Numbered from the stretch's first letter, positions 1-14,322 are shown. The stretch: 25,499 bases of DNA from a virus (IMGVR_UViG_3300045051_000571:1-25499), one strand, 5' to 3'. Notes: generated by a model not told the origin, from the sequence alone. Translations and numbers: made by a program.

Positions 1-58
1 GGTCCGCGCTTCGCAGGTCCGCGCTTCGCAGGTTCGCGCCTCCCAGGTTCGCGCCCGG
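1..58 (-). repeat. 15-bp tandem repeats encoding pentapeptide units
   Basis: On the plus strand the unit GGTCCGCGCTTCGCA occurs twice in a row, followed by two diverged units beginning GGTTCGCGCC. The 15-bp period equals five codons, so each unit encodes one A(D/N)L-R-S type pentapeptide. The array continues past the left edge. Confidence 0.8.
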
Positions 59-478
59 AAGAATGGAGACGATCCGTCCGCGGGAAAGCTTCTTGATCAC
101 GCCGCCGCTGGCGACGATCCAGCACCCGCCGAGCACCGTTGCTCGCTTTTCGCTGACGACCATGTGCCGCACCCGATCCGCCAACGAGGTTCGCACCCCC
201 GCCTCAGCATCGGCCCACCATGCCGGAGCGCTCCCTTCGTCGAGACGCAGCGTCCACCTGTCCACATCGGCGAACACGGCGCGCTCTTCCGGCTTGGCGT
301 CGGGTGGGATCTCCGGCGGCGTGAACTCGACGCGCACGAAAGCGGCGGCGCGCGTCGCCGACCTGCCGCTGTCGTCGAGACCGAACGCCGAGATCAAATC
401 CTCGTGCGAATCGGTGTGTTCGGGGTCGCAGAGAATATCCCCGTTGCGAAGGACGATTGCTGAAAGAAAGTGGCACAT
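1..478 (-). CDS. Pentapeptide-repeat protein, 3' end beyond window
   Basis: Reads leftward from an ATG at 478 and stays open to base 1, so only the first 159 codons are visible. The product starts MCHFLSAIVLRNGDILC and continues with SHEDLISAFGL and FVRVEFTPP, an N-terminal domain I recall from many phage and metagenomic proteins that end in short repeats. From about residue 143 the sequence becomes tandem A(N/D)L-x-x units (GANLGGANLRSADL), the pentapeptide-repeat signature of a right-handed beta helix. At DNA level these units are near-perfect 15-bp repeats at 1-60. The start is supported by AAGGA 11 nt upstream and by an operator-bearing promoter at 527-555. The biochemical role is unknown; DNA mimicry is known for some pentapeptide proteins but nothing here shows it. 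Confidence 0.8.
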   Translation of the reverse strand, partial: MCHFLSAIVLRNGDILCDPEHTDSHEDLISAFGLDDSGRSATRAAAFVRVEFTPPEIPPDAKPEERAVFADVDRWTLRLDEGSAPAWWADAEAGVRTSLADRVRHMVVSEKRATVLGGCWIVASGGVIKKLSRGRIVSILPGANLGGANLRSADLRSAD

Positions 479-526
479 GGTCTTGAGATTCCTTTTTGGT
501 CGCGGGTTCGTTCAACTTCTGCGGCT

Positions 527-555
527 AGTCTAGCAACCTGCTAAGCGCTTGTCAA
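527..555 (-). promoter_or_regulatory. Promoter P1 with shared 20-bp operator
   Basis: Reading leftward, TTGACA (555-550) is followed by a 17-bp spacer and TAGACT (532-527), a near-consensus sigma70-type promoter. The operator GCAACCTGCTAAGCGCTTGT (plus strand, 533-552) covers the last three bases of the -35 box and the whole spacer, so a bound protein would block polymerase. The stop codon of the upstream gene (557-559) lies just beside the -35 box. The predicted leader runs about 40 nt to the ATG at 478 and contains GAACGAACCCG, also found in the P2 leader. Confidence 0.75.
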
Positions 556-556
556 G

Positions 557-1546
557 CTACCCGTTCACCGTGCGGTCGACGACCTTGATCGCCTCGCGCA
601 CCTTGTCGAGGGCGGCGAGGGGGAAGTCGACGCGCCGCAGGTGCTCACCCCAGAACGCGACGACCTCGGGCGCGGCGGAGAGCTTGCGCTCGACCTCGAT
701 CAACAGGTTGAGCACCGACCGCAGGTCGGCGTCGGGGGCGGGCTCTTCGATCACCTTCACCGCGCCGAACCGATCCGCCATCGCCTGGATCGCTTCCGCG
801 CGCGAGCCCCACTCGCCAAAGAACCGCGCGCCGCTCTCCGCGTCGAACGCCAGCCACCGCAGGCCCGAGCACTCGAGCCGCACCGGCTGCGGGGTGGAGC
901 GCGCGGGCTTCGGCGGGGCCGCCGGCTTCCACGCCTGCGCCAGCGGGTCGACGGCGGGCTCTTTGCCGGTGCCGTCGCAGCGCTCGCAGGACGCCCACCG
1001 AAGGCCCGCGGGATTGGTGGGCGACGCTCCGGTTCCGTCACAGCCCGTGCACGCGCCCGCCGCGCGGAGATCCGCCGGCTCGCCGATCCCGTCCACCGAC
1101 GACTCGCACACGCCGGGGATCGCATCGCCGCCCGGCACCGTGGCGGGGGCTTGGAGAGACCGGGAGAGCGCCACGTGCTCGCGCACCTGTCGTCCCAATG
1201 CGGTGCGCACCTGTCGTCCCAATGCGGTGCGCACCGGCACATTTTGTAGGTTCGGCTCGGACGCCTTCCGCCCGGTGAGGCTCGGCTCGCGCGCCGCCCA
1301 CCGCTCGAGGCATCCGCCTTCACCCTCGCACCGGGTCAGGTCGTCGACGCAGCTCTGCAGGGCGTCGTGGGCAACCGTGCGGCCGCAGGTCGGGCAGCGC
1401 ACGGTCGCGGGGTACTTCGCCGCGCAGCGCTTGCAGGTGACGGCGGCGCGGTCGGTCGTGAGCCGCAAACCATCGTTCAAGCGCCCGTTGCAGGCGTTGA
1501 ACGGTTGGCAGGCTTCGAGGCGGTAGTGGATGATCGGTGCGGGCAT
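557..1546 (-). CDS. Zinc-cluster protein with a Pol I-like signature peptide
   Basis: 329-aa protein of unknown function. The N-terminus has CxxC pairs (C38/C41, C51/C54) suggesting zinc ribbons. Residues 166-194 hold two CxxCxGxG motifs (CTGCDGTG, CERCDGTG) like those of the DnaJ central zinc domain. Residues 91-113 read TGRKASEPNLQNVPV then RTALGRQV, closely matching the conserved TGRLSS-xxPNLQNIPxR segment that precedes motif A in family A DNA polymerases, but the DYSQIE motif that should follow is absent. An 8-residue unit RTALGRQV is repeated twice. The last 100 residues look helical. The start uses GGAG 9 nt upstream of the ATG. It is probably co-transcribed with the 1563-1952 gene from promoter P2, 16 bp separating the reading frames. 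Confidence 0.75.
   Translation of the reverse strand: MPAPIIHYRLEACQPFNACNGRLNDGLRLTTDRAAVTCKRCAAKYPATVRCPTCGRTVAHDALQSCVDDLTRCEGEGGCLERWAAREPSLTGRKASEPNLQNVPVRTALGRQVRTALGRQVREHVALSRSLQAPATVPGGDAIPGVCESSVDGIGEPADLRAAGACTGCDGTGASPTNPAGLRWASCERCDGTGKEPAVDPLAQAWKPAAPPKPARSTPQPVRLECSGLRWLAFDAESGARFFGEWGSRAEAIQAMADRFGAVKVIEEPAPDADLRSVLNLLIEVERKLSAAPEVVAFWGEHLRRVDFPLAALDKVREAIKVVDRTVNG
1181..1235. repeat. 24-bp exact tandem duplication inside the zinc-cluster gene
   Basis: The 24-bp unit starting GCGCACCTGTCGTCCCAATG occurs at 1181-1204 and again at 1205-1228, followed by a 7-base partial third copy. It is in frame and duplicates eight residues (RTALGRQV) within the Pol I-like segment. Exact identity suggests a recent slippage duplication. 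Confidence 0.95.
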
Positions 1547-1562
1547 GGTCTCGGGCTCCGGT

Positions 1563-1952
1563 CTAGAAGCTGAAATCGTAGTACCGATCGCGCTCGCCGA
1601 TGCGCAGCCCCAGACCCTTGGCGACGTTCCAGCGCCCGGTCTCGGGGTTGAGGCTGACCTGCTGCCAGCGGCCGTTCTTCGCTTGCTTGAAGGTGTAGAG
1701 GGCTCCCTCGGGGTTCGGGCTGAACTTGTAGCTCTGGCACTCGCTCATACCATTGCCGTCGGTGCGCTCGTACTTGTCGACCTGCACCGTCAGGAGGATC
1801 GCCTTTCCGAGATTCTCCACCTTGACGATCGTGGCGGGGTCGCGGTCGCTCCAGTGAAGGATCGTCGCGCCCATTCCGACGGTCGGGGTCGGCTGTCCGA
1901 TCACGCCCGCGGCGTCGAGGTGGTTGGTCAGGCTTCCGAACTGTTGCGACAT
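1563..1952 (-). CDS. Small phage protein, unknown function
   Basis: 129-aa protein beginning MSQQFGSLTNHLDAAGV and ending RIGERDRYYDFSF. The central part (ILHWSDRDPATIVKVE, then YTFKQAKNGRWQQV) looks like a small beta-rich domain; the ending with YYD and aromatic residues recalls other phage hypothetical proteins, but I cannot give a function. A longer frame opens upstream at 1997, but that start lies inside promoter P2, between its -10 and -35 boxes, so it cannot be on the transcript. The ATG at 1952 has GGGAG 6 nt upstream, which decides the start. First gene of the P2 unit, followed by the zinc-cluster gene. Confidence 0.75.
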   Translation of the reverse strand: MSQQFGSLTNHLDAAGVIGQPTPTVGMGATILHWSDRDPATIVKVENLGKAILLTVQVDKYERTDGNGMSECQSYKFSPNPEGALYTFKQAKNGRWQQVSLNPETGRWNVAKGLGLRIGERDRYYDFSF

Positions 1953-1987
1953 GGTGGGCTCCCGGGTTCGTTCTGCGTTCTGAGAGG

Positions 1988-2016
1988 ATACTAACAAGCG
2001 CCTAGCGGGTTGTCAA
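1988..2016 (-). promoter_or_regulatory. Promoter P2 with shared operator, inside the end of the clamp-like gene
   Basis: Leftward TTGACA (2016-2011), 17-bp spacer, TAGTAT (1993-1988). The operator on the plus strand is ACAAGCGCCTAGCGGGTTGT (1994-2013). The last codons of the upstream gene (L-T-T-R-stop) are made from the -35 box and operator, so coding and regulatory sequence overlap. The operator is in the opposite orientation to that in P1 and P4. Predicted transcription start about 1980, giving a leader of roughly 28 nt. Confidence 0.78.
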
Positions 2017-2589
2017 GTGCACCGGCATGAGCATCGCGATCTCGCCCGACTGCCCGCCGATGCGGCGCACCGCGATCGGGCCCGTCGTCTCGCCCGCGGT
2101 CTTCCCTTCGGTGTCGGGCTTCACAGTCAAGACGAGCTTGCCCTTCTTGTCCCCGAGCGCCTCGGCGATCTGCACGAGCAGGGCGAGGTCGAAAGCCACC
2201 TCGAAGGTGCCCGGCTCGCCCTTCTGCGGCGTGCTGATCTCGCGCCACGCGGGGAACGTCTCGCCCTCACCACGCAGCGTGCGGGGCATCGTCGACCCGT
2301 CGGCGAAGGTGTAGTGGTCTGCGGCAAGAAGGATCTCGGCTTCGGCGAGCTTCTGCGCCTTGGCGAGCTTGCGCGCCCGCTCCAACGCTTCGGCGCAGAC
2401 CGGGCCCGACGGCTTCGGGTAGTCTTCGAGCACGTTGACGGGCAGAGCGACGAGGGTGTACCCGTCGACGGCGACGATCCGCCCGCTGCCGTCGGGCTCG
2501 ACCTCTACCTCGGCGGTGCGGAGCGCCTTGCGGCGGCTCACGTCGTCGGAAATGCATGTCTCGGGCTTGTACTCAACAGGGATCTTCAC
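2002..2589 (-). CDS. Putative short DNA sliding-clamp-like protein
   Basis: 195-aa protein starting at GTG 2589 (VKIPVEYKPETC) with AGGAG 6 nt upstream; the same frame continues upstream through the neighbouring gene but only in low-complexity arginine-rich shadow sequence. Features resembling beta clamps: a mid-chain VDGYTLVALP (compare the ATDGxRL element of DnaN), FPAWREI near residue 113 (compare the yPdw segment before domain 2), a helix FDLALLVQIAEALG followed by a beta strand, and a C-terminal GEIAMLMPVHL resembling the DnaN ending VMPMRL. It is about half the length of a bacterial clamp and close to phage clamps such as T4 gp45. If correct it would act as a polymerase processivity ring. 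No clamp loader or polymerase gene lies in this window. The assignment rests on motif resemblance only. Confidence 0.5.
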   Translation of the reverse strand: MKIPVEYKPETCISDDVSRRKALRTAEVEVEPDGSGRIVAVDGYTLVALPVNVLEDYPKPSGPVCAEALERARKLAKAQKLAEAEILLAADHYTFADGSTMPRTLRGEGETFPAWREISTPQKGEPGTFEVAFDLALLVQIAEALGDKKGKLVLTVKPDTEGKTAGETTGPIAVRRIGGQSGEIAMLMPVHLTTR

Positions 2590-2608
2590 GGTGGACTCCT
2601 GGGGGAAA

Positions 2609-2630
2609 GGGGCCCGAGCAGCCGGGCCCC
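2609..2630 (-). promoter_or_regulatory. Perfect 8-bp stem hairpin between two early genes
   Basis: GGGGCCCG, loop AGCAGC, CGGGCCCC. In the leftward direction it is followed by TTTCCCCC and then the ribosome site of the clamp-like gene. The T run is too short for a confident terminator; it could be an attenuator or a transcript-stabilising stem that lowers expression of the downstream gene. Confidence 0.5.
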
Positions 2631-2645
2631 GGGAGGGTTGAGCTG

Positions 2646-2969
2646 CTACAGGCTGAGGGCGAGCCCGGTGTGCGCCTCGATCAGGCGCTTCAAGTCGGCC
2701 GCGTGCACCCCGTGCTCGGCGACGATCTCGCGCGGGGTGGCGGTGACGGCGCGGGGGATGTGCCAGAAGTGCAGCGAGTAGGTGTCGCTGCCGGCGTCGA
2801 GGTCGATCTCGATGTGGTTGATCTTGTCGGCCGCCTTCGCCGAGAAGCGGATCCCCACGCCGTCGGGGCGGGCGAGAGCGTGCCTGACGCCGATCATCGC
2901 CGCGAACCGGTTCCCGCCGAGCTGCTCGAGGATCGTCTGCGCCACGTCGCTGCCCTTGGTCTCGTTCAT
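2646..2969 (-). CDS. Widespread phage protein of unknown function (TILEQLGGNRF family)
   Basis: 107-aa protein starting MNETKGSDVAQTILEQLGGNRF, with IRFSAKAADKINHIEIDLD and a C-terminus LKRLIEAHTGLALSL. I recognise this arrangement (ILEQLGGNKF... INYVKITL ... TGLYTSL) from many phage genomes, where no function is known. Upstream in-frame ATGs at 3005 and 2999 exist. The first lies before the expected transcription start of promoter P3; the second would be leaderless. The 2969 start is preferred because the 30 nt before it match the P2 leader (GAACGCAG..CGAACC..GAG), where they are non-coding. First gene of the P3 unit, with the clamp-like gene downstream. Confidence 0.75.
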   Translation of the reverse strand: MNETKGSDVAQTILEQLGGNRFAAMIGVRHALARPDGVGIRFSAKAADKINHIEIDLDAGSDTYSLHFWHIPRAVTATPREIVAEHGVHAADLKRLIEAHTGLALSL

Positions 2970-3005
2970 GGTCTCGCTCTCGGTTCGCGCTGCGTTCATG
3001 GTCAC

Positions 3006-3034
3006 AATCTAACAAGCGTCTAGCGGGTTGTCAA
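3006..3034 (-). promoter_or_regulatory. Promoter P3 with shared operator
   Basis: Leftward TTGACA (3034-3029), 17-bp spacer, TAGATT (3011-3006). The plus-strand operator is ACAAGCGTCTAGCGGGTTGT (3012-3031), 19 of 20 identical to that in P2. An ATG sits 6 nt after the -10 box (2999), so a leaderless start is possible, although a second ATG at 2969 follows a leader shared with P2. A TTTTTT run at 3048-3053 upstream could end transcripts from the preceding gene, but no clear stem precedes it. Confidence 0.78.
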
Positions 3035-3074
3035 GTCTTACGGGCAGAAAAAAGCGCCACGACTGACGATCTGT

Positions 3075-3401
3075 TTAAGTGCCTGATTTTACTGAGGGCG
3101 AGGGAAGTACTTTTGCCTCTTGCCCGCGGCGGACACACGCGCGCCGGCAGAAGCGCCCCGTCTTCTTGCCGCTCGCCAGCTCGCTCGGGTAGACGGTGAA
3201 GGCGCGGCCGCAGGTCTCGCACCGGCAAGGGATGCCCTTACGCTTGCCGCGCTCGGCGGTGAGCGCCCGCACCTGCGTCTCGAGCTGCTCGACCTCGGCA
3301 ACGAGCACCGGCACGAGGGGCAGGATCGCCGCCGCGGCGTCGAGCCCGGCGGCGGGCAGGTGTTCGAGGGCGGCGCGGATCCTGTCGAGGGCGTTGCTCA
3401 C
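3075..3401 (-). CDS. Coiled-coil plus FCxxxC zinc-ribbon protein
   Basis: 108-aa protein from GTG 3401, which overlaps the stop of the upstream regulator gene as GTGA, implying translational coupling. Residues 1-55 are helical and heptad-like (LVAEVEQLETQVRALTAERG). The C-terminal half reads CRCETCGRAFTVYPSEL then GRFCRRACVRRG, the treble-clef-like pattern (CxxCGkxF...G.FCSxxC) found in phage DNA-binding and HNH-associated proteins. A DNA- or RNA-binding role is likely; no nuclease residues are visible. A longer frame from 3527 is only shadow sequence of the upstream gene. Confidence 0.7.
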   Translation of the reverse strand: MSNALDRIRAALEHLPAAGLDAAAAILPLVPVLVAEVEQLETQVRALTAERGKRKGIPCRCETCGRAFTVYPSELASGKKTGRFCRRACVRRGQEAKVLPSPSVKSGT

Positions 3402-3790
3402 CGGCTCACCGTCGGGGGCAGGTGATAGGCGAAGGCGGGCGCGCCGCCCGTGGCGATCGGCGTGCGCGCCAGCAGCCCCTCGTCGAGCATGTGCCGGAGC
3501 ACGGCGATCACCGTCGGCCGGCTCCAACCCGTCGTCTGCTCGACCTGCCGCACGGTGAGGCTCGGCTGGTCGAGCAGCAGCCCCAACACGGTGTCGGCGT
3601 TGCGGTCGACGGCGCGCGGGCGGGTCATGGTCGCCGGGAACGCTGGGGGCGCCTTGGCTGGCATGGGCACGGCTTCGAGCGCCTGCCGCAGGTAGCGCTC
3701 GGCGATGGCGTGCACCGACCCCCGCTCGGCGACGGCAAGAGCGCCCAGCTTGCGGATCAAATCCTCGTCGGTGAGCTTTACATTTAGCAT
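3398..3790 (-). CDS. Ribbon-helix-helix / winged-helix regulator
   Basis: 130-aa protein. Residues 1-40 (MLNVKLTDEDLIRKLGALA, then SVHAIAERYLRQAL) resemble an Arc/MetJ-type ribbon-helix-helix segment. Residues 62-120 form a winged helix: NADTVLGLLLDQPSLTVRQV, EQTTGWSRPTVIAVLRHML, DEGLLART, with a recognition helix SRPTVIAVLRHM. This suggests a DNA-binding transcription factor, possibly of the divergent control region next to it or of the shared operator. The start at 3790 has AAAGG 8 nt upstream and a promoter at 3821-3849. It is the first gene of a two-gene unit with the zinc-ribbon protein. Confidence 0.7.
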   Translation of the reverse strand: MLNVKLTDEDLIRKLGALAVAERGSVHAIAERYLRQALEAVPMPAKAPPAFPATMTRPRAVDRNADTVLGLLLDQPSLTVRQVEQTTGWSRPTVIAVLRHMLDEGLLARTPIATGGAPAFAYHLPPTVSR

Positions 3791-3820
3791 GTGTCGAACC
3801 TTTCTGTTAGGGTTTGGTTG

Positions 3821-3849
3821 TCTCTAACACATTGCGAACGGGCGAACAA
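3821..3849 (-). promoter_or_regulatory. Leftward promoter of the regulator gene, without the shared operator
   Basis: TTGTTC (3849-3844), 17-bp spacer, TAGAGA (3826-3821). The -10 box resembles those of P1-P4, but the spacer has no CTAG-centred operator; it holds the direct repeat TTCGCCCGTTCGC. Leader to ATG 3790 is about 24 nt. Direct repeats could bind the regulator itself; this is inference. Confidence 0.5.
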
Positions 3850-4051
3850 GTGCCGATCCAAGCCCGATCCGGACAAAAACAGGGGTGAAGAGGGATCCCT
3901 TTTACCTCGAAAACTCGAAAAACAGATCAAGTATGAAGTATAAATAATAGATCAGTCACATGAGAATTGGGGGTAGGGTTCCAGACCTTTCAAGTGGTTG
4001 AACCACTTTCGGGCGCCCGCCGGCCGTTCGTTGCCGAACACCGTTCAGAGC
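3850..4051. other. Non-coding divergent control region with an AT-rich patch
   Basis: Between the leftward regulator and the terminase promoter no reading frame can be supported. It contains an AT-rich stretch (about 3900-3960) that stands out in a very GC-rich window, a tandem CTCGAAAA direct repeat (3906-3921), and the palindrome at 3992-4008. Its position beside the small terminase gene makes a packaging (pac or cos) site a reasonable guess, and an operator or replication site is also possible. None can be shown from sequence alone. Confidence 0.5.
3992..4008. promoter_or_regulatory. Perfect 17-bp inverted repeat, candidate operator
   Basis: AAGTGGTT, centre G, AACCACTT. The arms match over all eight bases. 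No T run follows, so a terminator is unlikely; a dimeric regulator site or a terminase recognition element is more plausible. It sits 44 bp before the -35 box of the small terminase promoter. Confidence 0.55.
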
Positions 4052-4081
4052 TTGACGCCCCCTCGACGAGCAGGTTAGGCT
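4052..4081 (+). promoter_or_regulatory. Late-type promoter L1 (leaderless small terminase)
   Basis: TTGACG (4052-4057), 18-bp spacer, TAGGCT (4076-4081), then 7 nt to the ATG at 4089. Transcription would begin at or next to the start codon. Same architecture as the promoters before the methyltransferase, portal and prohead protease genes. Confidence 0.6.
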
Positions 4082-4088
4082 CGCTCGC

Positions 4089-4628
4089 ATGGTCGCAGTC
4101 CGAATGCCACGCGATCCTGTGATCGCGCCCTCAACACGTGCCGAGCGCACGGATCGGGACGCGCTTGGTCGTTGGCGCCCGGGCGGCCCGACCGCGAACC
4201 CCAAGGGGCGGCCGCCGGGCTTCCAGGCGTTGATCCGCGCTCGGCTCGGTCGCAACGGCGAGAAGCTCGTCGACTTCCTGTGCGCGGTGCTCGACGGCAC
4301 CGCGGAAGTCGACGCGCTCGCGACCGTGCGCGACGGCGCCGAGACGCGCGCCGAGATCGTGCGCTGCGGCCCCACCATGCGCGAGCGGCTCGAGGCGGCG
4401 AAGATGCTGCGCGACTCGGGCTTCGGGCGGCCGGCGCTCGCCGTCGAGGTCAGCGGGCCCGACGGCGGCCCCATCCCGACGGCGCGCGCGGTCGACGTGG
4501 ACCGCTACGACGACGCCCAGCTCGCGCAGCTCGAGGCGCTGCTCGAGCGCGGTGCGCCGCAGCTCCCCGCGGCCGGCGAGGTCGTCGAGGGCGAAGTGCT
4601 CGACGAGGAAGCCGAGGGCGACGAGTGA
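4089..4628 (+). CDS. terS: Small terminase subunit
   Basis: 179-aa protein. N-terminal segment GRWRPGGPTANPKGRPPGFQ is the NPxGRPxG pattern of many phage small terminase-like proteins, followed by helices (LIRARLGRNGEKLVDFL, then MRERLEAAKMLRDSGFGRPA). The C-terminus is acidic (VEGEVLDEEAEGDE). It lies two genes upstream of the large terminase, where small subunits normally sit. It would recognise phage DNA and load it on the motor. The start is supported by promoter L1, which places the ATG at the predicted transcription start. The stop overlaps the next start as GTGA. Confidence 0.75.
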   Translation: MVAVRMPRDPVIAPSTRAERTDRDALGRWRPGGPTANPKGRPPGFQALIRARLGRNGEKLVDFLCAVLDGTAEVDALATVRDGAETRAEIVRCGPTMRERLEAAKMLRDSGFGRPALAVEVSGPDGGPIPTARAVDVDRYDDAQLAQLEALLERGAPQLPAAGEVVEGEVLDEEAEGDE

Positions 4629-4816
4629 ACGCGCACGGGCTGCTCGCGCTTGCCGCGCTCTGTTCTTCTGCCCCGCCCGCTGAGCGGCGGCGCTGCTACA
4701 GCGCCGCCCCCGCCGCCGTAGCGGAGGATCGACAACGACGCAAGCGCGAGCGTCGACGCGAGAAGCGCCACAAGAAAGCGCGGCTCCGACAGCTCGAACG
4801 CGAGGGGAAGCTGTGA
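4625..4816 (+). CDS. Small very basic protein between terminase genes
   Basis: 63-aa protein from GTG 4625, which overlaps the small terminase stop (GTGA); its own TGA overlaps the next GTG start in the same way. The C-terminal half is almost all R, K, E and Q (RQRRKRERRREKRHKKARLR), suggesting a charged helix that binds nucleic acid. The N-terminus VNAHGLLALAALCSS is hydrophobic, but too short and without a proper lipobox, so export is not supported. The frame continues upstream through the small terminase gene only as shadow sequence. Function unknown; a packaging accessory is a guess based on position. Confidence 0.55.
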   Translation: MNAHGLLALAALCSSAPPAERRRCYSAAPAAVAEDRQRRKRERRREKRHKKARLRQLEREGKL

Positions 4817-5118
4817 CCGACAAGCCCCTGCACGGGATCAAGCTCCTGATCGTCAACTCGCCTGACGATGCGTCAAGGAAGCTCTTCGCCGACCTCGCGC
4901 GAGCACTCGGCGCCGAGGTGCACGAGGTCGAGCTGCAGCCGGGCGTCGACGGGCCGCCCCAGCTCGACGCGCTCGCCCTGATCGGCCCGCCGCCCAAGCT
5001 CAAGTGCGCGGGCTGCGGCGTCGAGCACGAGGTGATCCGCGACGGCCGGCTGGTGCAGGTCACGCCGTCGGCCGACCCGGGCGTGGGCTTGTGTGGCCGC
5101 TGCCTGGGGCGCGGGTAG
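4813..5118 (+). CDS. Small zinc-ribbon protein between terminase genes
   Basis: 101-aa protein from GTG 4813, coupled to the gene before it. N-terminal half: IKLLIVNSPDDASRKLFADL then GAEVHEVEL, resembling a small alpha/beta fold. C-terminal half has CAGCG and CGRCLGRG, two CxxC pairs that probably bind zinc. No family recognised. Confidence 0.65.
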   Translation: MTDKPLHGIKLLIVNSPDDASRKLFADLARALGAEVHEVELQPGVDGPPQLDALALIGPPPKLKCAGCGVEHEVIRDGRLVQVTPSADPGVGLCGRCLGRG

Positions 5119-5122
5119 CGCG

Positions 5123-6703
5123 GTGCCCGGGCTTCGCATTGCCGAGGTGGACGCGGCACAGGCGCTCGAGCAGGTGCGCGCCGAGCGCACCCGGCGCTCG
5201 TTCAGCTACTTCGCAGCTCGAGCCTGGGAAGAGGTCGACCCGGCGCCGCTCGTGTGGGGCTGGCACATGCAGGCGATCTGCGACCATCTGCAAGCCGTCA
5301 CCGAAGGGAAGATCCGCCGGCTCTTGATCAACGTCCCGCCCGGGCACGCGAAGTCAATGCTCGTCTCGGTCTTGTGGCCGGCGTGGTCGTGGCTTCGCAC
5401 CCCGTCGTGGCGCTCGCTGTTCGCGAGCTACGCCGACGAGCTGGTACTCCGCGACGCGCGCAAGTGCCGCACGCTGATCGAGTCGGCGTGGTATGGCGGG
5501 CTGCGCGCCACGCTCGCGCGCATGGGCAAGCTCACGCCGTGGGCGCTCGTTGACGACCACAACCAAGTCGGCTACTACGCCAACACCGCGCTGGGCGAGC
5601 GCAAGGCGCTGGCGGTGAAGGGGCAGGGCACGGGGTTTCGCGGCGACACGATCGTCGTCGACGACCCGCTGAAAGCGCAGGACGCCCACAGCGAGGCGGC
5701 GCGGAAAAACGTGCTCACGTGGTGGGATGAGACCATGAGCAGCCGCGCCAACGACCTCGCCACGGGGTCGAAGGTGATCATCATGCAGCGCCTTCACGAG
5801 GCGGACCTCGCGGGGCACGTGCTCGGCAAGAGCGGGTGGGATCACCTTTGCCTGCCCAGCGAGTTCGAGCCGGGCGGCGTCTGCAAGTGCGAGAGCTGCG
5901 CCCGGGGCGCGACCTCGATCGGCTGGCGCGACCCGCGCAAGGCGGCCGGCGAGCTGCTCTTCCCCGCGAAGTTCTCGCGCAAGGTGCTCGACGAGGCGCG
6001 CGTCGACCTGGGGACGTTCGCCTACGCCGCGCAGCACAGGCAGAGCCCGGTGCCTGAGGGCGGCGGGCAGCTCAAGAGCGCTTGGTTCCGGCGCGTGTGG
6101 CGCGCGCCCGGCGAGCCCGAGCACGCCGCGGGGCAGTTCGAGGCGCAGTTCGAGGTGCGCACGCTCACCGCCGACCCGCGCGCGGTGAAGTGGCACGAGC
6201 TGATCGCCGTCATGGACGCGACCTTCAAAAAGACCGACGACGCCGACAAGGTGGCGATCGGGATCTGGGGCCGGCTCGGGCCCGACATGTACCTGCTCGA
6301 TCTCTTCTGGGATCGGGCGGGGTTCGTCGCGACCGTCGAGGCGTTCCAGGGGCTTTGCCGCAAGTGGCCGCGCGTGGGCGCGAAGCTGATCGAGGACAAA
6401 GCGAACGGGAGCGCGGTGATCGACGTGCTTCGGAGCAAGATCCCCGGGATCATCCCCGTCAACCCTCAGGGCGGCAAGGAGGCGCGCATCGCCGCGGCGT
6501 CGCCGTTCGTCGAGGCGGGCAACGTGTGGCTGCCCCTGAACGCGGAGTGGCGCACCCGCGCGGTTGCCGAGTGCGCCAGCTTCCCCAACGCCCCCAACGA
6601 CGACTTCCCCGACATGATGGCCTACGCCGTCATGCGGTTCGCCCCGAAGCTCGGGATGGCCGCGCTTCGGGTCGAGACGCTCAAGAAAGCGCTGGGCGGT
6701 TAG
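5123..6703 (+). CDS. terL: Large terminase subunit
   Basis: 526-aa ATPase-nuclease that pumps DNA into the prohead. The Walker A-like motif is VPPGHAKS (residues 71-78), the Walker B is TIVVDDPLK (about 174-182). The C-terminal RNase H-like nuclease has its acidic residues at MDATFKKTD (about 364), LIEDKANGSA and NDDFPDMMAYAVMRF. Internal CKCESCARG (about 252) is a CxxC pair in the linker. Length is typical. The GTG at 5123 follows the preceding stop by 4 bases; a GTG at 5093 would add ten residues by overlapping the upstream gene and seems less likely. Confidence 0.93.
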   Translation: MPGLRIAEVDAAQALEQVRAERTRRSFSYFAARAWEEVDPAPLVWGWHMQAICDHLQAVTEGKIRRLLINVPPGHAKSMLVSVLWPAWSWLRTPSWRSLFASYADELVLRDARKCRTLIESAWYGGLRATLARMGKLTPWALVDDHNQVGYYANTALGERKALAVKGQGTGFRGDTIVVDDPLKAQDAHSEAARKNVLTWWDETMSSRANDLATGSKVIIMQRLHEADLAGHVLGKSGWDHLCLPSEFEPGGVCKCESCARGATSIGWRDPRKAAGELLFPAKFSRKVLDEARVDLGTFAYAAQHRQSPVPEGGGQLKSAWFRRVWRAPGEPEHAAGQFEAQFEVRTLTADPRAVKWHELIAVMDATFKKTDDADKVAIGIWGRLGPDMYLLDLFWDRAGFVATVEAFQGLCRKWPRVGAKLIEDKANGSAVIDVLRSKIPGIIPVNPQGGKEARIAAASPFVEAGNVWLPLNAEWRTRAVAECASFPNAPNDDFPDMMAYAVMRFAPKLGMAALRVETLKKALGG

Positions 6704-6760
6704 CTCTCGACCGGCGGCACCTTCCGACCTCAAGCGCTCCAAGACCGCCCGCGCGCTCGC

Positions 6761-6790
6761 TTGACTGTTTACCAGCCGACCCTGTAGGGT
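6761..6790 (+). promoter_or_regulatory. Late-type promoter L2 (leaderless methyltransferase)
   Basis: TTGACT (6761-6766), 18-bp spacer, TAGGGT (6785-6790), then 7 nt to ATG 6798. The AGGG of the -10 box could also serve as a ribosome site 8 nt before the ATG, but if the promoter is real it would not be in the transcript. Confidence 0.6.
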
Positions 6791-6797
6791 GCTCGAC

Positions 6798-7622
6798 ATG
6801 TCCGCCGCCCTCGAGCTGGTGCCCGACCCCCAAGACCTCGACGAGCCGCGCGAGGTGGCGCCGCAGCCTTTGCCGCCCCCGCGCGTGCTCGCGCCCTACT
6901 TCGACGACGACCGCGCGGCGCTCTTCCGCGGCGAGGCGCTCGGGATCCTGTGCGACCTGCCCGGCGGGTGTGTCGACGCGGTGATCACCGATCCGCCCTA
7001 CAGCTCCGGCGGCGCGTTCCGCGGCGATCGGATGCTCAACACGACCGCCAAGTACGTGAACACCGACGTTCAGAAGACGCACCCCGACTTCTCCGGCGAC
7101 AACCGCGACCAGCGCAGCTTCGCCGTGTGGTGCGCGCTGTGGCTCTCCGAGTGCCTGCGCATCGCCAAGCCCGCGGCGCCGATCTGTGTCTTCACCGATT
7201 GGCGCCAGCTCCCCAGCGTCACCGACGCGATCCAGGCGGGCGGGTGGATCTGGCGCGGGATCGGCGTCTGGGACAAGACCGAGGGCGTGCGCCCGTTCCT
7301 TGGCCGCTTCCGGCAACAGGCCGAGTTCCTCGTGTGGGGCACGAACGGCCCCGCGCCGCTGCGGCCCGAGGTCGGCGCGCTTCCCGGCGTGTGGCGGCAC
7401 AGCTCGAAGGGCGCGCGCAAAGAGCATATCGCCGCGAAGGACGTCGACCTCATGCGGCAGGTCGTGCGGATCTGCGACCCGGGCGGCGTGGTGCTCGACC
7501 CCTTCAACGGCTCAGGCTCGACCGGCGTTGCCGCGCTGCTCGAGGGGCGGCGCTACTTGGGGATCGAGCTGCACGAGCACAACCTGCAGGTGAGCGTGCG
7601 GCGCCTGTGCGAGGTCGGCTAG
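6798..7622 (+). CDS. DNA N6-adenine or N4-cytosine methyltransferase
   Basis: 274-aa amino-methyltransferase. Motif IV AVITDPPYSSGG has DPPY at residues 65-68; the cofactor motif DPFNGSGSTG lies near residues 234-243, so the catalytic motif precedes the AdoMet-binding motif, the beta-class order. DPPY does not settle adenine versus cytosine. No restriction endonuclease is adjacent, so it is an orphan enzyme, probably protecting phage DNA from host restriction or marking it for packaging or regulation. ATG 6798 is preferred over GTG 6789, which lies inside the -10 box of promoter L2. Located between terminase and portal genes. Confidence 0.9.
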   Translation: MSAALELVPDPQDLDEPREVAPQPLPPPRVLAPYFDDDRAALFRGEALGILCDLPGGCVDAVITDPPYSSGGAFRGDRMLNTTAKYVNTDVQKTHPDFSGDNRDQRSFAVWCALWLSECLRIAKPAAPICVFTDWRQLPSVTDAIQAGGWIWRGIGVWDKTEGVRPFLGRFRQQAEFLVWGTNGPAPLRPEVGALPGVWRHSSKGARKEHIAAKDVDLMRQVVRICDPGGVVLDPFNGSGSTGVAALLEGRRYLGIELHEHNLQVSVRRLCEVG

Positions 7623-7633
7623 CGCGTCGGCGC

Positions 7634-7663
7634 TCGACTGTCAACGGGTGGGCATCGTATCCT
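7634..7663 (+). promoter_or_regulatory. Late-type promoter L3 (leaderless portal)
   Basis: TCGACT (7634-7639), 18-bp spacer, TATCCT (7658-7663), then 7 nt to ATG 7671. Aligned with L2 the two share GACTGT after the -35 region, GTA at the -10, and CGAC just before ATG. There is no Shine-Dalgarno sequence before the portal start, which supports a leaderless transcript. Confidence 0.55.
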
Positions 7664-7670
7664 CGACGAC

Positions 7671-9722
7671 ATGAGCCCGACCCCCGCCCCCCTTGCCGCT
7701 CTCAAGACCGCGGCCAGCAATCCCGACAACCTCGTGCGGCTCGCGCAGTTCGCGCGCCGGCTCGACGGCTGGCAGAACGCCTTTACCGGCTTGGGCACCT
7801 CGCGCGACAAGCGAGAGGCGACAGCGATCGGGGCGACCACCAAGATCCCCTTTGAGGTGCTCCGGGACATGTACCGGAGCGATTTCCTCACCGCGCGGAT
7901 CGTTGACAAGCCCGCCGCCGAAATGTGCCGGGAGTGGATCGAGGTCCGGATCCAAGATCAGAAGGAGGCGGGGGAGGCGTGCGACCAATGGCTCGACGAC
8001 CTCGACGCCCGCGCCGCGTTCGAGCTGGCGCTGCAATGGCGTCGCGGGTACGGGGGCGCGGGGATCCTGCTCGGGATCAATCGTGACAACCCGCCGACGC
8101 CCGAGCAAATGGCGGCGCCGCTCAACCCCGGCGACATCCGGACGATCGACCACCTCACCGTGTTCTCCGCGCGGGAGTTGCAGACGGTCGCCTACTACTC
8201 CGACCCGCTCTCGCCGAAGTTCGGGCAGCCCGCGGTCTACCGCATCGTGCCCCAGGTGCCCTTCGGAATCTCGGGGCAGGCGATCATGTCGTTCGGCGCG
8301 ACCATGCTGGATCCCGTCATGGCGGGCGCGCCGACGCACCCCTGGTCAATCCTCCCCGAGGTGCACGAGAGCTGGATCCTGCGGTTCGACGGCGCGGTGG
8401 TCGACCGCCGGCAGCGGCTCGAGAATTGGGGCTGGGGCGACGCGGTGCTTCAACGCTGCTACGACATCATCCGCGACGTGGGGTCGAGCTGGGGATCGAT
8501 CGCCAACCTGTTGCAGGACTTCGCGCAGGGCATCTTTTCGATGCCGGGTCTTATGGACGCGCTCGCGTCGGACAACGAAGGGCTGATCCAGAAGCGGCTC
8601 GAGCTGCTCGACCTGACCCGCTCCAATCAGCGGATGATCGCGCTCGACGGCGGGCGCGAAGACGGCGGCGGCAAGGAGGAGTTCAAGCGCGAGGTGGCGA
8701 CCCTGACCGGCGCCGCTGAAGTGCTCAACAGCATGTTTCAGCTCTTGAGCGCCGCCGCCGATCAGCCTCTCACCATGCTGCTCGGTCAGAGCCCGAAGGG
8801 CTTGGGCAATGAGGGCGAGAGCGACATGGAGCGGTGGCGCGATCACGTCGCCGACCTGCAACGCTCCGACATGTTGCCTCAGCTCAAGCGGCTGATCGAG
8901 CTGGGCATGACGGCGACCAAGGGCCCGACGGGTGGCAAGGTCTACACCGAGCCGACCGAGGGGAGGAACGGCAAGAAGAGCGGGCGGCGCCCGTGGTCGA
9001 TCTACTTCCGGCCGCTGCGCCAGCTCGACGAGCAGGAGCAGGCCACCCTGCGCAAGACGATCGCCGAGACCGACCAGATCAACATCGCACAGGGGATCTA
9101 CACGCCTGAGGAAGCGCGCACCTCGCACTACGGGGGCGACGGGTTCTCGGTCGAGGTGCAGCTCGATCACGAGACGCGCGAGGCGTTTGAGACGACCGAC
9201 CCCGCCGAGGGCGCGGGGATGTGCCCCGACTGCGGCGTGCCGTGCGAGCCGGGCAAGCCGTGCCCGAAGTGCGGCGCGGTCGCTCCCGAGGCGCCGGCCG
9301 CCCCGCCGCCGGGGACGCTCGAGCAGGAGGGCGAGGAAATGCCCGCGACCGGAGCGCCGGCCAAGCCCGGCGAGTCGGCGACCGCGCCCGGCGGCGCCGA
9401 CCTGCAAGCGCTCGCCCTGAACGGCGCACAGATCACCGGCATGGTGGCGATCCTCGCCGCGGTGCGCGACGGCAGCCTCCCGCCCGAGTCGGCGATCGTC
9501 GCTCTGCAAGTGAGCTTCCCCGCGCAGATCGATGCGGAGAAGGCGCGCAAGCTCGTGACCCCGATCGAGGTGAAGGAGCCGCCTGCGCCGCCCGACCCGC
9601 TCGAGCTGGCGAAGGCGAGGGCGGCCGGCGCGCCCCCGCCCCCGGGCGCTCCGGGGAAGGCGCCGCCGTTCGGCAAGCCGGTCGCTGGGGACAAGCCCGT
9701 GGGCGGTGAGCCGAAGCCGTGA
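7671..9722 (+). CDS. Portal protein (DUF1073-like) with a C-terminal zinc ribbon
   Basis: 683-aa portal, the ring at the head vertex through which DNA passes. Family signatures: DGWQNAFTGLGTSRDKR (about 32-48), RSDFLTARIVDKPAAEMCRE, GGAGILLGI, the conserved NWGWGDAVLQRCYD (about 252-265), and LLGQSPKGLGNEGESD before the C-terminal stem. The core ends near residue 500. The tail is unusual: CPDCGVPCEPGKPCPKCG (about 518-535), a zinc-ribbon pattern, followed by proline/alanine-rich linker and a short helical region, making the protein longer than typical relatives. The stop overlaps the next GTG start (GTGA at 9719-9722). Confidence 0.9.
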   Translation: MSPTPAPLAALKTAASNPDNLVRLAQFARRLDGWQNAFTGLGTSRDKREATAIGATTKIPFEVLRDMYRSDFLTARIVDKPAAEMCREWIEVRIQDQKEAGEACDQWLDDLDARAAFELALQWRRGYGGAGILLGINRDNPPTPEQMAAPLNPGDIRTIDHLTVFSARELQTVAYYSDPLSPKFGQPAVYRIVPQVPFGISGQAIMSFGATMLDPVMAGAPTHPWSILPEVHESWILRFDGAVVDRRQRLENWGWGDAVLQRCYDIIRDVGSSWGSIANLLQDFAQGIFSMPGLMDALASDNEGLIQKRLELLDLTRSNQRMIALDGGREDGGGKEEFKREVATLTGAAEVLNSMFQLLSAAADQPLTMLLGQSPKGLGNEGESDMERWRDHVADLQRSDMLPQLKRLIELGMTATKGPTGGKVYTEPTEGRNGKKSGRRPWSIYFRPLRQLDEQEQATLRKTIAETDQINIAQGIYTPEEARTSHYGGDGFSVEVQLDHETREAFETTDPAEGAGMCPDCGVPCEPGKPCPKCGAVAPEAPAAPPPGTLEQEGEEMPATGAPAKPGESATAPGGADLQALALNGAQITGMVAILAAVRDGSLPPESAIVALQVSFPAQIDAEKARKLVTPIEVKEPPAPPDPLELAKARAAGAPPPPGAPGKAPPFGKPVAGDKPVGGEPKP

Positions 9723-10588
9723 CCCGTCAAGACCTGATCGCCCTGATCCGGCACAGCGGCCTGAGGCGCGCCCCGCGGCGCCGCCCCCGGCGCATGTTGC
9801 CGCCCGACGCGATCCGGCTGCGCTACTTCGCCGCGCTGCGCTCCGGGTTCCTGCACGACCTGCGCGAGCTGATCCGCAACAGGCTGATCCCCAGGTTGCA
9901 GACCCTCGCCGCCAACGTCTCGGCGCTGCGGCAGGATGCCGGGGAGTTCGACGACGGCGACCTGCACGACACGCTCGAGCAGCTCGCCGATCAGCTCGCC
10001 GAGAAGTGGACCGCGCGCCGCTTCGCGCAGGTCGTGCAGCCCTTCGCGCAGGACACCGCGCGCTACTCGCGCGAGCAACTGATCGGCGTCATGCGAGACC
10101 AGATCGGGATCGACGTGCTCGCCTCCGAGCCTTGGCTGCAGGCCGAGGTCTCGCGGTGGACTTCCCAAAACGTCGCCCTGATCAAGACGGTCCCCCAGAC
10201 GTTCTTCGCCGACATCGAACGCCGGCTGGTCGACGGGCTGCACAGCGGCGAGCGCTGGGAGAACCTCGCCGACATGCTCGAGGAGCGGATGGGCGTCGCC
10301 GAGTCGCGCGCGAACCTGATCGCCCGCGACCAAGTGGGGAAGCTGTTCGGGCAGCTCAACGAAAAGCGGCAGACCGAGTTGGGCGTTACCGGCTACGTGT
10401 GGCGCACCGTGCACGACAACCGCGTGCGCGAGCTGCACGAGGATCGCGACGGGCAGCACTTCGACTGGAACGATCCGCCGGAGGAGACGCCCGACGACGG
10501 GCACCCGGGCACACCGATCCAGTGCCGGTGCTACGCGGAGCCCGACCTCACCGAGATTTTCGGAGAGGCTCTCAGCGAGCCTTCTTGA
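9719..10588 (+). CDS. Phage head morphogenesis protein (Mu gpF / SPP1 gp7 family)
   Basis: 289-aa minor head protein, coupled to the portal gene. The C-terminal family signature is clear: YVWRTVHDNRVRELHEDRDG (about 225-244) followed by HPGTPIQCRCYAEP (about 261-274). Upstream helices include AESRANLIARDQVGKLFGQLNEKR. The N-terminus is basic (RRAPRRRPRR). Such proteins bind the portal and are packaged in small numbers in the prohead. The 3' end overlaps by 17 bases the end of a convergent gene. Confidence 0.9.
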   Translation: MTRQDLIALIRHSGLRRAPRRRPRRMLPPDAIRLRYFAALRSGFLHDLRELIRNRLIPRLQTLAANVSALRQDAGEFDDGDLHDTLEQLADQLAEKWTARRFAQVVQPFAQDTARYSREQLIGVMRDQIGIDVLASEPWLQAEVSRWTSQNVALIKTVPQTFFADIERRLVDGLHSGERWENLADMLEERMGVAESRANLIARDQVGKLFGQLNEKRQTELGVTGYVWRTVHDNRVRELHEDRDGQHFDWNDPPEETPDDGHPGTPIQCRCYAEPDLTEIFGEALSEPS

Positions 10589-10922
10589 CGTGCAGGAGCT
10601 TGGTAATCGCGTCGTTGACAACGACCGGCGCCAGCTCCCCGCCCGGCAGGTTGAAGAGCGCTCGAGCCGCTAGGCACATGACGCTGCCCTCGTGCACGCG
10701 CCGGCAGATTGCCGGGCGCCGTTCGTAGATCGAGCACCGCACCTGCTCGCCGATCATCCCGCGCAGGGCGATGCAGCGGTAGTTCGTCTCCGCCGGTGGG
10801 GTGGGGCTGTTCTTCATGGTGAGCCGGGGCCCGATGTGCTCGCGTGGGATCTCGTCGCCATCCTCGAGGCGGACTTCGGTGCAGCAACAGGCGCCGCAGG
10901 TGCGGCAGTCGAAGGGCTTCAC
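10572..10922 (-). CDS. YkgJ-type cysteine-cluster protein
   Basis: 116-aa protein from GTG 10922. FDCRTCGACC near the N-terminus, RCIAL, then CSIYERRPAICRRV and a late MCLA follow the FxCxxCGxCC...CxIYxxRPxxCR pattern of the zinc or iron-sulfur cluster family UPF0153/YkgJ. Biochemical role in phages unknown. It is the last gene of a leftward cassette, and its GTG overlaps the TGA of the zincin gene (10919-10922). The convergent overlap with the head morphogenesis gene shows how tightly the cassette is fitted. Confidence 0.85.
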   Translation of the reverse strand: MKPFDCRTCGACCCTEVRLEDGDEIPREHIGPRLTMKNSPTPPAETNYRCIALRGMIGEQVRCSIYERRPAICRRVHEGSVMCLAARALFNLPGGELAPVVVNDAITKLLHVKKAR

Positions 10923-11407
10923 GGGGCGACCTCAGGGCGGTGGCAACGGTCGCGGTGCGCGCCGTGCTCGGTGATCCACTTGTCGTTGGCGATCACGAGC
11001 GGCCAGATCGGATCGCTGTGGTCGAGGTCGGGCCGCCCGGCGCATTCGAGCAGGTGGTGCGCCAGCTCATGCGCGAAGGCGGAGTGATAGGCACAGCGCC
11101 GGGTCGCCAGCTCGACCTCGCCGCGCCCGTGGTGCAGCCCGTAGCAGGCGAAGCGCTCGGGCGAGCCGGCGGGGCAGGGGAGCACGCGCGCGGGGTGCAC
11201 GGTGACGGCGAGCCGGGGCAGGCACTCGGCGAGGCGCTCGAGGGGCACGCCCCACGCGCCCGCGGCGGTGCGCAGGGTCAGCTCTTCCAGCTCCGCCAGC
11301 TCGTCGGCGTGCAGGTTGCCGGGGCCATAGACCGCCACGCCGTGCCCCGTTACGAGGTCGGGGGCGCGGCAGGCGACGAGGGCGAGCAGGAGCAACGCGG
11401 GGCGCAT
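10919..11407 (-). CDS. Lipoprotein with HExxH zincin motif
   Basis: 162-aa protein. The start at ATG 11407 is fixed by AGGAGG 4 nt upstream; an earlier in-frame start at 11503 would add 32 arginine-rich residues and destroy the signal peptide. MRPALLLLALVAC gives a short signal with lipobox LVAC (C13), so the protein should be lipid-anchored. HSAFAHELAHHLLE contains HELAH (113-117), the zinc metallopeptidase motif, with H130 a candidate third ligand. Six further cysteines (C62, C78, C88, C105, C122 and one near the C-terminus) could form disulfides outside the cytoplasm. No exact family recognised. Could modify the envelope of the infected cell, assist lysis, or block superinfection; these are inferences. 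Confidence 0.7.
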   Translation of the reverse strand: MRPALLLLALVACRAPDLVTGHGVAVYGPGNLHADELAELEELTLRTAAGAWGVPLERLAECLPRLAVTVHPARVLPCPAGSPERFACYGLHHGRGEVELATRRCAYHSAFAHELAHHLLECAGRPDLDHSDPIWPLVIANDKWITEHGAHRDRCHRPEVAP

Positions 11408-11415
11408 GGTGCCTC

Positions 11416-11667
11416 CTAGTCTACGATCGCCTTCGCGCCGTCGACCACGTAGCAGATCCGCAGGTCGTCGACCGCGTAGACCTGGGGCTTGAGATCCCGC
11501 CAATGCTCGAACTTTTCGAGGGCGGTTTGGTGCGCCAAAGCGCTTGCCTTGGTCGAGTGCTCACCGAGCACGCGCAGCACGCCGATTTCAGGGTCAGTAA
11601 TCACGGCGAGAATGTAGCGGGTTCGCGGGTCGCGCTTGAGAGCGTAGGCGGCTGCGTAGTTCATCAT
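11416..11667 (-). CDS. Small hypothetical protein in the moron cassette
   Basis: 83-aa protein MMNYAAAYALKRDPRTRYIL... ending RICYVVDGAKAIVD. GGGAG lies 10 nt before the first ATG and 13 nt before a second ATG (11664). It looks like a small alpha/beta domain; no family recognised. It is 8 bp before the zincin gene and 21 bp after the gene upstream, consistent with one transcript. Confidence 0.6.
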   Translation of the reverse strand: MMNYAAAYALKRDPRTRYILAVITDPEIGVLRVLGEHSTKASALAHQTALEKFEHWRDLKPQVYAVDDLRICYVVDGAKAIVD

Positions 11668-11688
11668 GGGGTCGGTTCTCCCTTCAAG

Positions 11689-12072
11689 CTACCGCGTCGC
11701 CTTGAAGGCGGCGCGGGCGGCGGCGAACCCGCCGAGGTAGTTGATCTGCGCGAGGCGGTTGGGCTTGCCGTCGAAGTCGGCGGGGACGGCCGAGCGGGGT
11801 GCCCGCGCGTCGAGGAACGCCTGCCATTCGGCGTCGTGCTTCTCGTAGGCGGCGCGGCGAGCCGCTTCCGCGGCCGCGCGCTTGGCGTCGTCGGCGATCT
11901 TGGTCTCGCTCTTCACGATCTTGGCGCTGGTCTTGAGGGCGCGGGCGGCACAGACGACGCCGTAGTGCACCACGTTGCCGGCCGCCGTCTCAATCGCAAC
12001 CGTCGACTTGAGGTCGATCTTGCCGCAGCAATCACACACCGTCACGCTGTCGTCGGTCCCGAGGAATCGCAT
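11689..12072 (-). CDS. Zinc-binding phage protein with CxxCG motif
   Basis: 127-aa protein MRFLGTDDSVTVCDCCGKID, then VVHYGVVCAARAL, a combination I recognise from small phage and plasmid proteins (CxxCGKxxL ... YGxxCAARAL), probably one zinc site. A long charged helix follows (KSETKIADDAKRAAAEAARR). The ATG at 12072 has GGGAG 5-6 nt upstream and a leader resembling P2. In-frame ATGs at 12102 and 12099 sit at the predicted transcription start of P4 and could give a leaderless longer form. First gene of the moron cassette. Function unknown. Confidence 0.75.
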   Translation of the reverse strand: MRFLGTDDSVTVCDCCGKIDLKSTVAIETAAGNVVHYGVVCAARALKTSAKIVKSETKIADDAKRAAAEAARRAAYEKHDAEWQAFLDARAPRSAVPADFDGKPNRLAQINYLGGFAAARAAFKATR

Positions 12073-12108
12073 TGCCGCTCCCGTGTTCGCGTTGTTCATC
12101 ATGGCGCT

Positions 12109-12137
12109 ACTCTAACAACCTGCTAGGCGCTTGTCAA
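12109..12137 (-). promoter_or_regulatory. Promoter P4 with shared operator, driving the moron cassette
   Basis: Leftward TTGACA (12137-12132), 17-bp spacer, TAGAGT (12114-12109). The plus-strand operator ACAACCTGCTAGGCGCTTGT (12115-12134) is the reverse complement, with one mismatch, of the P2 operator. Lies about 9 kb from P3, inside the late region. Confidence 0.78.
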
Positions 12138-12191
12138 GTGTCTAGAAACAGGAAAGCGAGAATCCCAAAAACTGTTAAGGATCTCAGGGGC

Positions 12192-12221
12192 TTGCACGGT
12201 TGCCCGCCCTACATGTAGGAT
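12192..12221 (+). promoter_or_regulatory. Late-type promoter L4 (leaderless prohead protease)
   Basis: TTGCAC (12192-12197), 18-bp spacer, TAGGAT (12216-12221), then 8 nt to ATG 12230. It is divergent from P4 with about 55 bp between the two -35 boxes, so the cassette and the capsid operon start from one short intergenic region. AGGA in the -10 box could alternatively be a ribosome site 9 nt from the ATG. Confidence 0.5.
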
Positions 12222-12229
12222 TTTGGGCA

Positions 12230-13357: not shown

Positions 13358-13372
13358 CGCGGCCCCGAGAGA

Positions 13373-13469
13373 TTGCTCCGACGGCTCGCCCTCGCAAGGG
13401 GCGGGCCTTTGGAGTCAGAAGGGCAACGACGCCCGCGGGAGTTCACCTCTCCAAATCCGAAAGGCAGGC
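13373..13469 (+). repeat. 97-bp duplicated leader, copy 1, with hairpin
   Basis: Identical by eye to 14222-14318. It contains a hairpin GGCTCGCCC (13383-13391), loop TCGCAAG, GGGCGGGCC (13399-13407) with one G-U pair, followed by TTT, then GAAAGGCAGG as a ribosome site. The copy lies just before the decoration gene. Confidence 0.92.
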
Positions 13470-13474
13470 AACAC

Positions 13475-14206
13475 ATGTCCCAGCTCAGCTATCTGCAGGA
13501 GCACGTCGCGGGGTACGCGGGCGACCTCGCCGACAGCGACCTCGACAAGCGCATCCTCGCGATGCGCAACAACAGCGGCGCCGATCTGCCGTTCGGTCGC
13601 ATGGTCGCCAGCGCCAAGGCGGACACGGGCGGCAGCGACATCGCCGCGCGGCTCCCCGGAACCGCCATGACCGACACCCTGATCGGGATCGCCGTGCGCA
13701 GCGCCGCGCGCGCCGCCGGCCCGATCGACACCACCGGCACCGACGGGGTGCGCGACGACGACATGTTCGACGTGCTCACCAAGGGCGGCGCCTACGTGGC
13801 GCCCGAGGTCGACATCACCGCGCCGACCGACGGCGTGTTCGTGCGCATCGGCCCCGGCACCGCCACCGACGGCAGCATGGACGCCCCGGGCACCTTCCGC
13901 AACGACATCGACGCCCACACGGCGTGGGTGCGGAAGACCGCCTACAGCAAGCTGGATCGCCGCAGCTACAACGGCAAGGTCTACCAGTGCATCACCGCGG
14001 GCACCTCGGAAGACGCCGCCGATCCCTCGGGCATCGTGGGCGCCCCGACCGGCGCGGCGATCACCGACGGCACCGCCGTGTGGAAGTACCTCGGCGTGTG
14101 CGACGCCTCGACCCGCGCGAGCGCGGTCGCCGTGACCGGCGCCAAGTGGCGCGTCAGCGGCACCGCGGCGAGCAAGCTCGCCAAGGTGGAGCTGAACCTC
14201 CCCTAG
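13475..14206 (+). CDS. Capsid decoration/cement protein with a chitin-binding-like insert
   Basis: 243-aa protein starting MSQLSYLQEHVAGYAG at ATG 13475 (AAAGG upstream). The N-terminal 130 residues (DLADSDLDKRILAMRNN, LPFGRMVASA, LIGIAVRSAARA, VLTKGGAYVAP) resemble the structural cement proteins that precede the major capsid gene in DUF2213/DUF2184-type phages. Residues about 149-207 are a separate module, AWVRKTAYSKLD, KVYQCITAGTSED, ITDGTAVWKYLG, a CBM5/12-like (chitin-binding-like) pattern. The same module occurs in the tail sheath protein in this window. It would be displayed on the head surface, where it could bind polysaccharide. Cement function is inferred from position and motif. Confidence 0.75.
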   Translation: MSQLSYLQEHVAGYAGDLADSDLDKRILAMRNNSGADLPFGRMVASAKADTGGSDIAARLPGTAMTDTLIGIAVRSAARAAGPIDTTGTDGVRDDDMFDVLTKGGAYVAPEVDITAPTDGVFVRIGPGTATDGSMDAPGTFRNDIDAHTAWVRKTAYSKLDRRSYNGKVYQCITAGTSEDAADPSGIVGAPTGAAITDGTAVWKYLGVCDASTRASAVAVTGAKWRVSGTAASKLAKVELNLP

Positions 14207-14221
14207 TCCGCGGGAGCTGAT

Positions 14222-14318: not shown

Positions 14319-14322
14319 CAAC

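Follow-up and report, generated by a model that had tools for sequence, protein, structure and literature searches.

The window analysed here, i.e. the complete IMG/VR record IMGVR_UViG_3300045051_000571 of 25,499 bases, is a phage fragment with a GC content of about 69%. Genes for TerL, portal, head morphogenesis, protease, MCP and tail sheath are recognisable, as in a myovirus-like phage; the plus strand carries the structural genes and the minus strand the early-type genes. As the 25,499-base record is a fragment in which neither an integrase nor a classical repressor is seen, a temperate life style cannot be claimed. A search for TerL relatives in bacterial genomes returned none. CTAG occurs 17 times in the whole window compared to about 73 occurrences expected from base composition, and the decoration-like and MCP genes are preceded by a direct repeat of about 100 bp (13370-13475 and 14220-14323).

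On the minus strand, a pentapeptide-repeat gene (1-478) is incomplete and runs off the left edge. Next to it lies an early gene at 557-1546, whose zinc-ribbon-like product carries a short DNA polymerase A motif (residues 90-124 match DNA polymerase family A, E 6e-5) and which contains a tandem 24-bp duplication near 1187-1234. Beyond it are early genes of the phrog_33370 family (1563-1952) and of the phrog_9437 family (2646-2990, function unassigned), with a gene at 2002-2589 between them. The latter had been labelled clamp-like in a previous sequence-only reading of the same DNA, a label which our comparisons left unconfirmed (no PDB match, PHROGs matches only weak) and which is kept here as a name. 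Far from this early cluster, a distal minus-strand cassette adjoins the protease gene; it comprises a first gene at 11689-12102 and, at 10572-11667, the genes of an 83-aa protein, a HExxH metallopeptidase-like protein and a CxxCxxCC protein.

Four minus-strand promoters precede these genes. P1 (TTGACAAGCGCTTAGCAGGTTGCTAGACT, 555-527) would drive the pentapeptide-repeat gene, which starts at 478, P2 (TTGACAACCCGCTAGGCGCTTGTTAGTAT, 1988-2016) the genes at 1563-1952 and 557-1546, P3 (TTGACAACCCGCTAGACGCTTGTTAGATT, 3006-3034) the phrog_9437 and clamp-like genes, and P4 (TTGACAAGCGCCTAGCAGGTTGTTAGAGT, 12109-12137) the distal cassette. The sequence-only reading had placed promoters at just these positions, which we can confirm: TTGACA-N17-TAGNNT has exactly four matches in the whole record, all on the minus strand, where shuffles predict none. 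In a general sigma-70 scan of positions 1-20000, P1-P4 rank as the four strongest promoter-like sites, and all four possess the TG of an extended -10. Between -35 and -10 each of them holds a 20-bp core (533-552, 1994-2013, 3012-3031 and 12115-12134 for P1 to P4, respectively), which thus overlaps the promoter elements; the P4 core, read on the plus strand, equals the previously given consensus exactly. Allowing up to three mismatches, the 20-mer has four matches, with none expected and zero elsewhere in the whole record, i.e. the motif is confined to the four promoter spacers. Scored with a PWM, P1-P4 reach 28-31 and the best other place 11, while random windows reach 17; a putative fifth site at 15301-15325 (TTGACAAAGCGCTTAACGCTCCGTCAAAT, minus strand) was rejected, its score lying inside the random range. 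One motif hence recurs at several distant promoters of a single phage, in the manner of dispersed operators. The claim that 17-19 of 20 bases are preserved holds for all pairs of cores except one, which shares 16. As also proposed before, the P2 site (TTGACAACCCGCTAG) doubles as coding sequence for the end of the clamp-like gene: it reads L-T-T-R-stop, which puts the stop codon TAG of that gene at the centre of the P2 operator. CTAG stands at the centre of three of the four operators. Since transcription would start downstream of the core, a role of the latter at the RNA level was considered unlikely.

Promoter-like sequences of a second class are found upstream of 4089, 6798, 7671 and 12230, i.e. 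before structural genes (4052-4089, 6761-6798, 7643-7671 and 12202-12230). They show similar boxes (TTGNCN-like, with a TAGGNT-like -10) at a spacing of about 18 bp and have unrelated spacers. Thus, the core is not demanded by the host sigma factor and is peculiar to the minus-strand class. Since the -10 of the structural-gene promoters ends only 7-8 nt ahead of the ATG start codon, the corresponding mRNAs would be leaderless; terS and the protease gene of a related phage (G001, see below) are preceded by the same leaderless-type arrangement.

Relative to transcription, the cores of P1 and P4 point one way (A-B) and those of P2 and P3 the other (B-A). Compared in the same direction, P1 and P4 share 18 and P2 and P3 19 of 20 bases; between the orientation groups, 16-19 bases agree when one core is inverted versus 12-14 in direct comparison. 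When the ACA and TGT ends, which the -35 box and the extended -10 dictate, are left out, the inner 14 bp of opposite-orientation copies match at 11-13 positions inverted versus 7-8 direct, and a single shuffle in 200,000 reaches the observed inverted identity, for P2-P4 as well as for P1-P2. The orientation flip at fixed spacing described earlier is therefore real and independent of the promoter boxes, which shows that either core orientation is tolerated within the promoter. Less remains of the description of the cores as one near-palindrome. While the motif is indeed shared by all four, only 14 of its 20 bases are self-complementary (10 of 20 in P1, taken in this frame), four of the seven inner pairs are self-complementary (three in P1), and spacer shuffles equal the observed symmetry in 6.5% of cases (p ~0.07), which is moderate evidence at best. 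Promoter boxes account for six of the 14 symmetric bases (ACA in the -35, TGT in the extended -10), so that palindromicity taken by itself counts as weak evidence. Nor is the flip by itself proof of selection for a symmetric site, for which it had been taken as an argument: a neutral template-switch micro-inversion between the element ends could also yield it. Each of the four cores combines an A half (ACAAGCGC) with a B half (ACAACCYG), which suggests that a copied core was inverted, rather than four independent origins.

The 5' leaders of the promoters are homologous across orientations (P1-P2, p 0.002; P2-P3 and P3-P4, 0 of 500 shuffles). Given the differing core orientation, this homology indicates that the promoters are duplicated cassettes with the core turned round. 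In a rival explanation, no protein reads the core: a strong host-type promoter cassette was duplicated, and two of the four spacers were inverted by template switching between the ACAA/TTGT ends. The homologous leaders, the pairing of one A with one B half as in an inverted copy and the near-chance palindromicity all agree with it, as does a relative (L068) in which the duplicated module extends even to the start codon and the first codons. Moreover, template switching has been described to homogenise the arms and invert the spacers of short inverted repeats (PMC8604942). However, spacer inversion was seen only with arms longer than 9 bp (PMC8604942), and the perfect arms of the window core (ACAA/TTGT) measure 4 bp. 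Between duplicates, drift has gone further in the leaders than in the cores, the latter being 16-19/20 identical in their best orientation, and in each of three relatives one or two cores, kept independently, join early cluster and distal cassette. We regard duplication and inversion without a core-binding protein as unlikely.

New here is that three related contigs each repeat an early-promoter core of their own, different in sequence. Hereof, G001 (IMGVR_UViG_3300027985_001048) was reached through the MCP (61% MCP identity), and L068 and L070 are TerL relatives with identities of about 50% and about 49%, respectively. In G001, seven promoters are built alike but around another core of 21 bp (commonest form GACAGCCGCCGGGCGAGCGTC), with the same centre and conserved leaders. 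Its cores are 12-16/20 self-complementary (spacer-shuffle p 0.013), and one promoter, located on the opposite strand, immediately precedes the protease gene, which corresponds to the position of P4 in the window. L068 carries six repeats of its own core, which is not palindromic, with two spacer types and one repeat beside the protease gene. These types (8462, 9087 and 6404, 9476, 18956 (minus)) have the right half and the leader in common and differ in the left half; the GGGTG centre of one appears as CACCC at the mirrored position of the other, possibly another partial flip. In L070, TTGACANNNCCCGGG is present three times, once in the cassette before the protease gene, where the site lacks a clear -10 at 17 bp; this cassette also encodes, at the same place, a homolog of the 11689-12102 protein of the window. 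In all four phages, one core copy thus belongs to a cassette on the minus strand that is flanked by the genes for head morphogenesis and protease. Among the 47 TerL loci for which 3 kb or more of upstream sequence was available, repeated TTGACA cores were found in only four, i.e. in G001, L068, L070 and the unrelated L081.

The link between the early genes and a distant "moron" cassette, as it had been called, accordingly stands with respect to the shared core, but not with respect to the name: the syntenic position in four phages and the L070 homolog of the first protein speak for a long-standing slot and not for a recent insertion. Among the relatives, early cluster and distal cassette remain linked although the core sequence changes, which is what phage-specific operators would lead one to expect. 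Within IMG/VR, the exact 18-mer core has two matches, in unrelated phages and neither with TTGACA at promoter spacing, and the degenerate promoter-plus-core pattern has nine, of five distinct kinds, in unrelated phages and each in single copy; searches with the phrog_9437 or winged-helix protein gave no new relatives. The divergence of the cores also bears on whether a host regulator, e.g. a LexA-type SOS repressor, binds them. Phages often borrow host operators, but here the core sequences differ completely between related phages, and when 84,980 genomes of bacteria and archaea were scanned for a related pattern, only two single sites turned up; these are orthologous, lie ahead of a probable kdsB gene in Gemmatimonadota and are near the number expected by chance. 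Binding by a host protein hence appears very improbable.

A possible binder is encoded on the minus strand at 3398-3790. The protein gives a MarR_2 match (E 1.5e-7), and its best Foldseek matches are winged-helix regulators; its N-terminus is modelled, at low confidence, as a two-helix hairpin following residues 1-7, with weak profile matches to MazE and CopG chains, i.e. RHH-like. G001, L068 and L070 encode orthologs in the corresponding position, adjoining terS and on the opposite strand; the remaining fetched loci yielded none. Co-occurrence of the winged-helix protein with repeated cores agrees with a role as binder, yet it is confounded by shared ancestry, which explains it too. The 20-mer search of the record revealed no core copy at the promoter of this gene itself, a point against the model given below, and comparison of the winged-helix and clamp-like proteins with named phages gave no match. 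The RHH-winged-helix protein is the best candidate for the binder of the core, an assignment that may be right but that we make tentatively. Between the winged-helix gene and terS of G001 (locus L066, 11017-11354), GTGCAGGGTT/AACCCTGCAC repeats are densely arrayed, about twelve in number, together with a 100-nt inverted repeat (85%); this region might be an origin or an array of operators for the regulator itself. Upstream of the L068 gene (7312-7457) lies a 25-nt inverted repeat, 92% complementary and 96 nt apart, and the same interval of the window holds the palindrome AAGTGGTTGAACCACTT near 3990-4008. L070 encodes a sigma-factor-like protein (3109-3918) adjoining its winged-helix gene.

When promoter-only location, orientation flip and divergence among relatives are taken into account, the core is probably a phage-specific dispersed operator embedded in early promoters and bound by a phage regulator acting as repressor; that the core is bound, that binding represses and which protein binds are what we infer here from sequence. 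Hereby, a phage-specific DNA-binding protein would occupy the space between -35 and -10 of the minus-strand early-type promoters and sterically exclude RNA polymerase, so that the three early units and the distal cassette would be switched together by coordinated repression, be it for lysogeny or to shut off the early genes. Of the earlier proposal that a single repressor does so, the restriction of the motif to promoter spacers and the link between early cluster and cassette are borne out. The regulator would be dimeric when bound, roughly two-fold symmetric around the midpoint of the promoter, which would allow the core to sit in either orientation in the four duplicated promoter-leader cassettes. 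Alternatively, an activator or a polymerase-associated phage factor could read the core and boost the early promoters. Small DNA-binding candidates are present in the early cluster, and the sigma-like protein of L070 lies beside its winged-helix gene. The boxes of P1-P4, however, are near consensus (TTGACA, 17 bp, extended -10), so that these promoters should not need activation, and a site filling the promoter spacer is the classic position for a repressor. Activation is thus an improbable function of the core.

Within the phage family, promoter boxes and positions are kept and the core sequence is swapped, probably as the specificity of the regulator changes. In the strongest form of the model, which we put forward as a doubtful though conceivable proposal, the spacer would be an exchangeable and reversible operator slot in a standard promoter-leader cassette. 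The core would flip within a genome and be replaced wholesale between relatives against a constant background of boxes and positions, among them the slot ahead of the protease gene, and it would be read by a new kind of fused RHH-winged-helix regulator. The system offers a compact natural test of the constraints on operator orientation and sequence inside a promoter, with the same promoter and leader carrying the core both ways in one genome and unrelated cores in the same slot of related phages. Should the RHH-winged-helix protein turn out to be the binder, these four phages would make a ready series in which the joint change of repressor and operator specificity can be followed.

Regulation by dispersed or spacer-borne phage operators has precedents. 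In phage P22, the RHH repressors Arc and Mnt recognise an operator of about 21 bp that is partly symmetric and sits between -10 and -35. The window core likewise is partly symmetric, if only moderately, and lies in the -10/-35 spacer, but Arc controls one locus, whereas here four scattered promoters are concerned and the candidate, with its putative RHH hairpin, has an additional winged-helix domain. The C1 repressor of phage P1 has many scattered operators, several over promoters, in which respect the window resembles it; these are asymmetric sites of 17 bp, in contrast to the partly symmetric 20-bp cores, and a C1 homolog was not noticed in the window. In SPbeta, SPBRE elements, a 15-bp motif, occur at several intergenic regions and are bound by a single master repressor, the recombinase-fold protein MrpR (PMC10516654). 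The window shares the repetition of a phage element at several places, but its cores are fixed in the promoter spacer, a placement which is not the feature reported for SPBRE, and no recombinase-fold master repressor was noticed among the gene products scanned in this incomplete record. A further precedent is given by the cluster A mycobacteriophages (L5/Bxb1), whose repressor sites are dispersed over the genome, some within early promoters, with a motif that varies between related phages together with the repressor (PMC6550527). Scattered sites in one phage and a motif differing among related phages are likewise found here. The cluster A sites, however, are 13 bp long, lack dyad symmetry, lie mostly outside promoters and mostly in one orientation, and are bound by a monomeric repressor with two DNA-binding domains (PMC9283540). 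The window sites comprise 20 bp with partial dyad symmetry, all in promoters and two in each orientation, and the candidate regulator matches MarR-type winged helices, the cluster A repressor being one with an HTH plus a Stoperator domain. The window system is thus no member of this group, even though it would work alike. Within known dispersed-site regulation, it is set apart by fixed placement in the promoter spacer, the use of both orientations and the wholesale replacement of the core between relatives.
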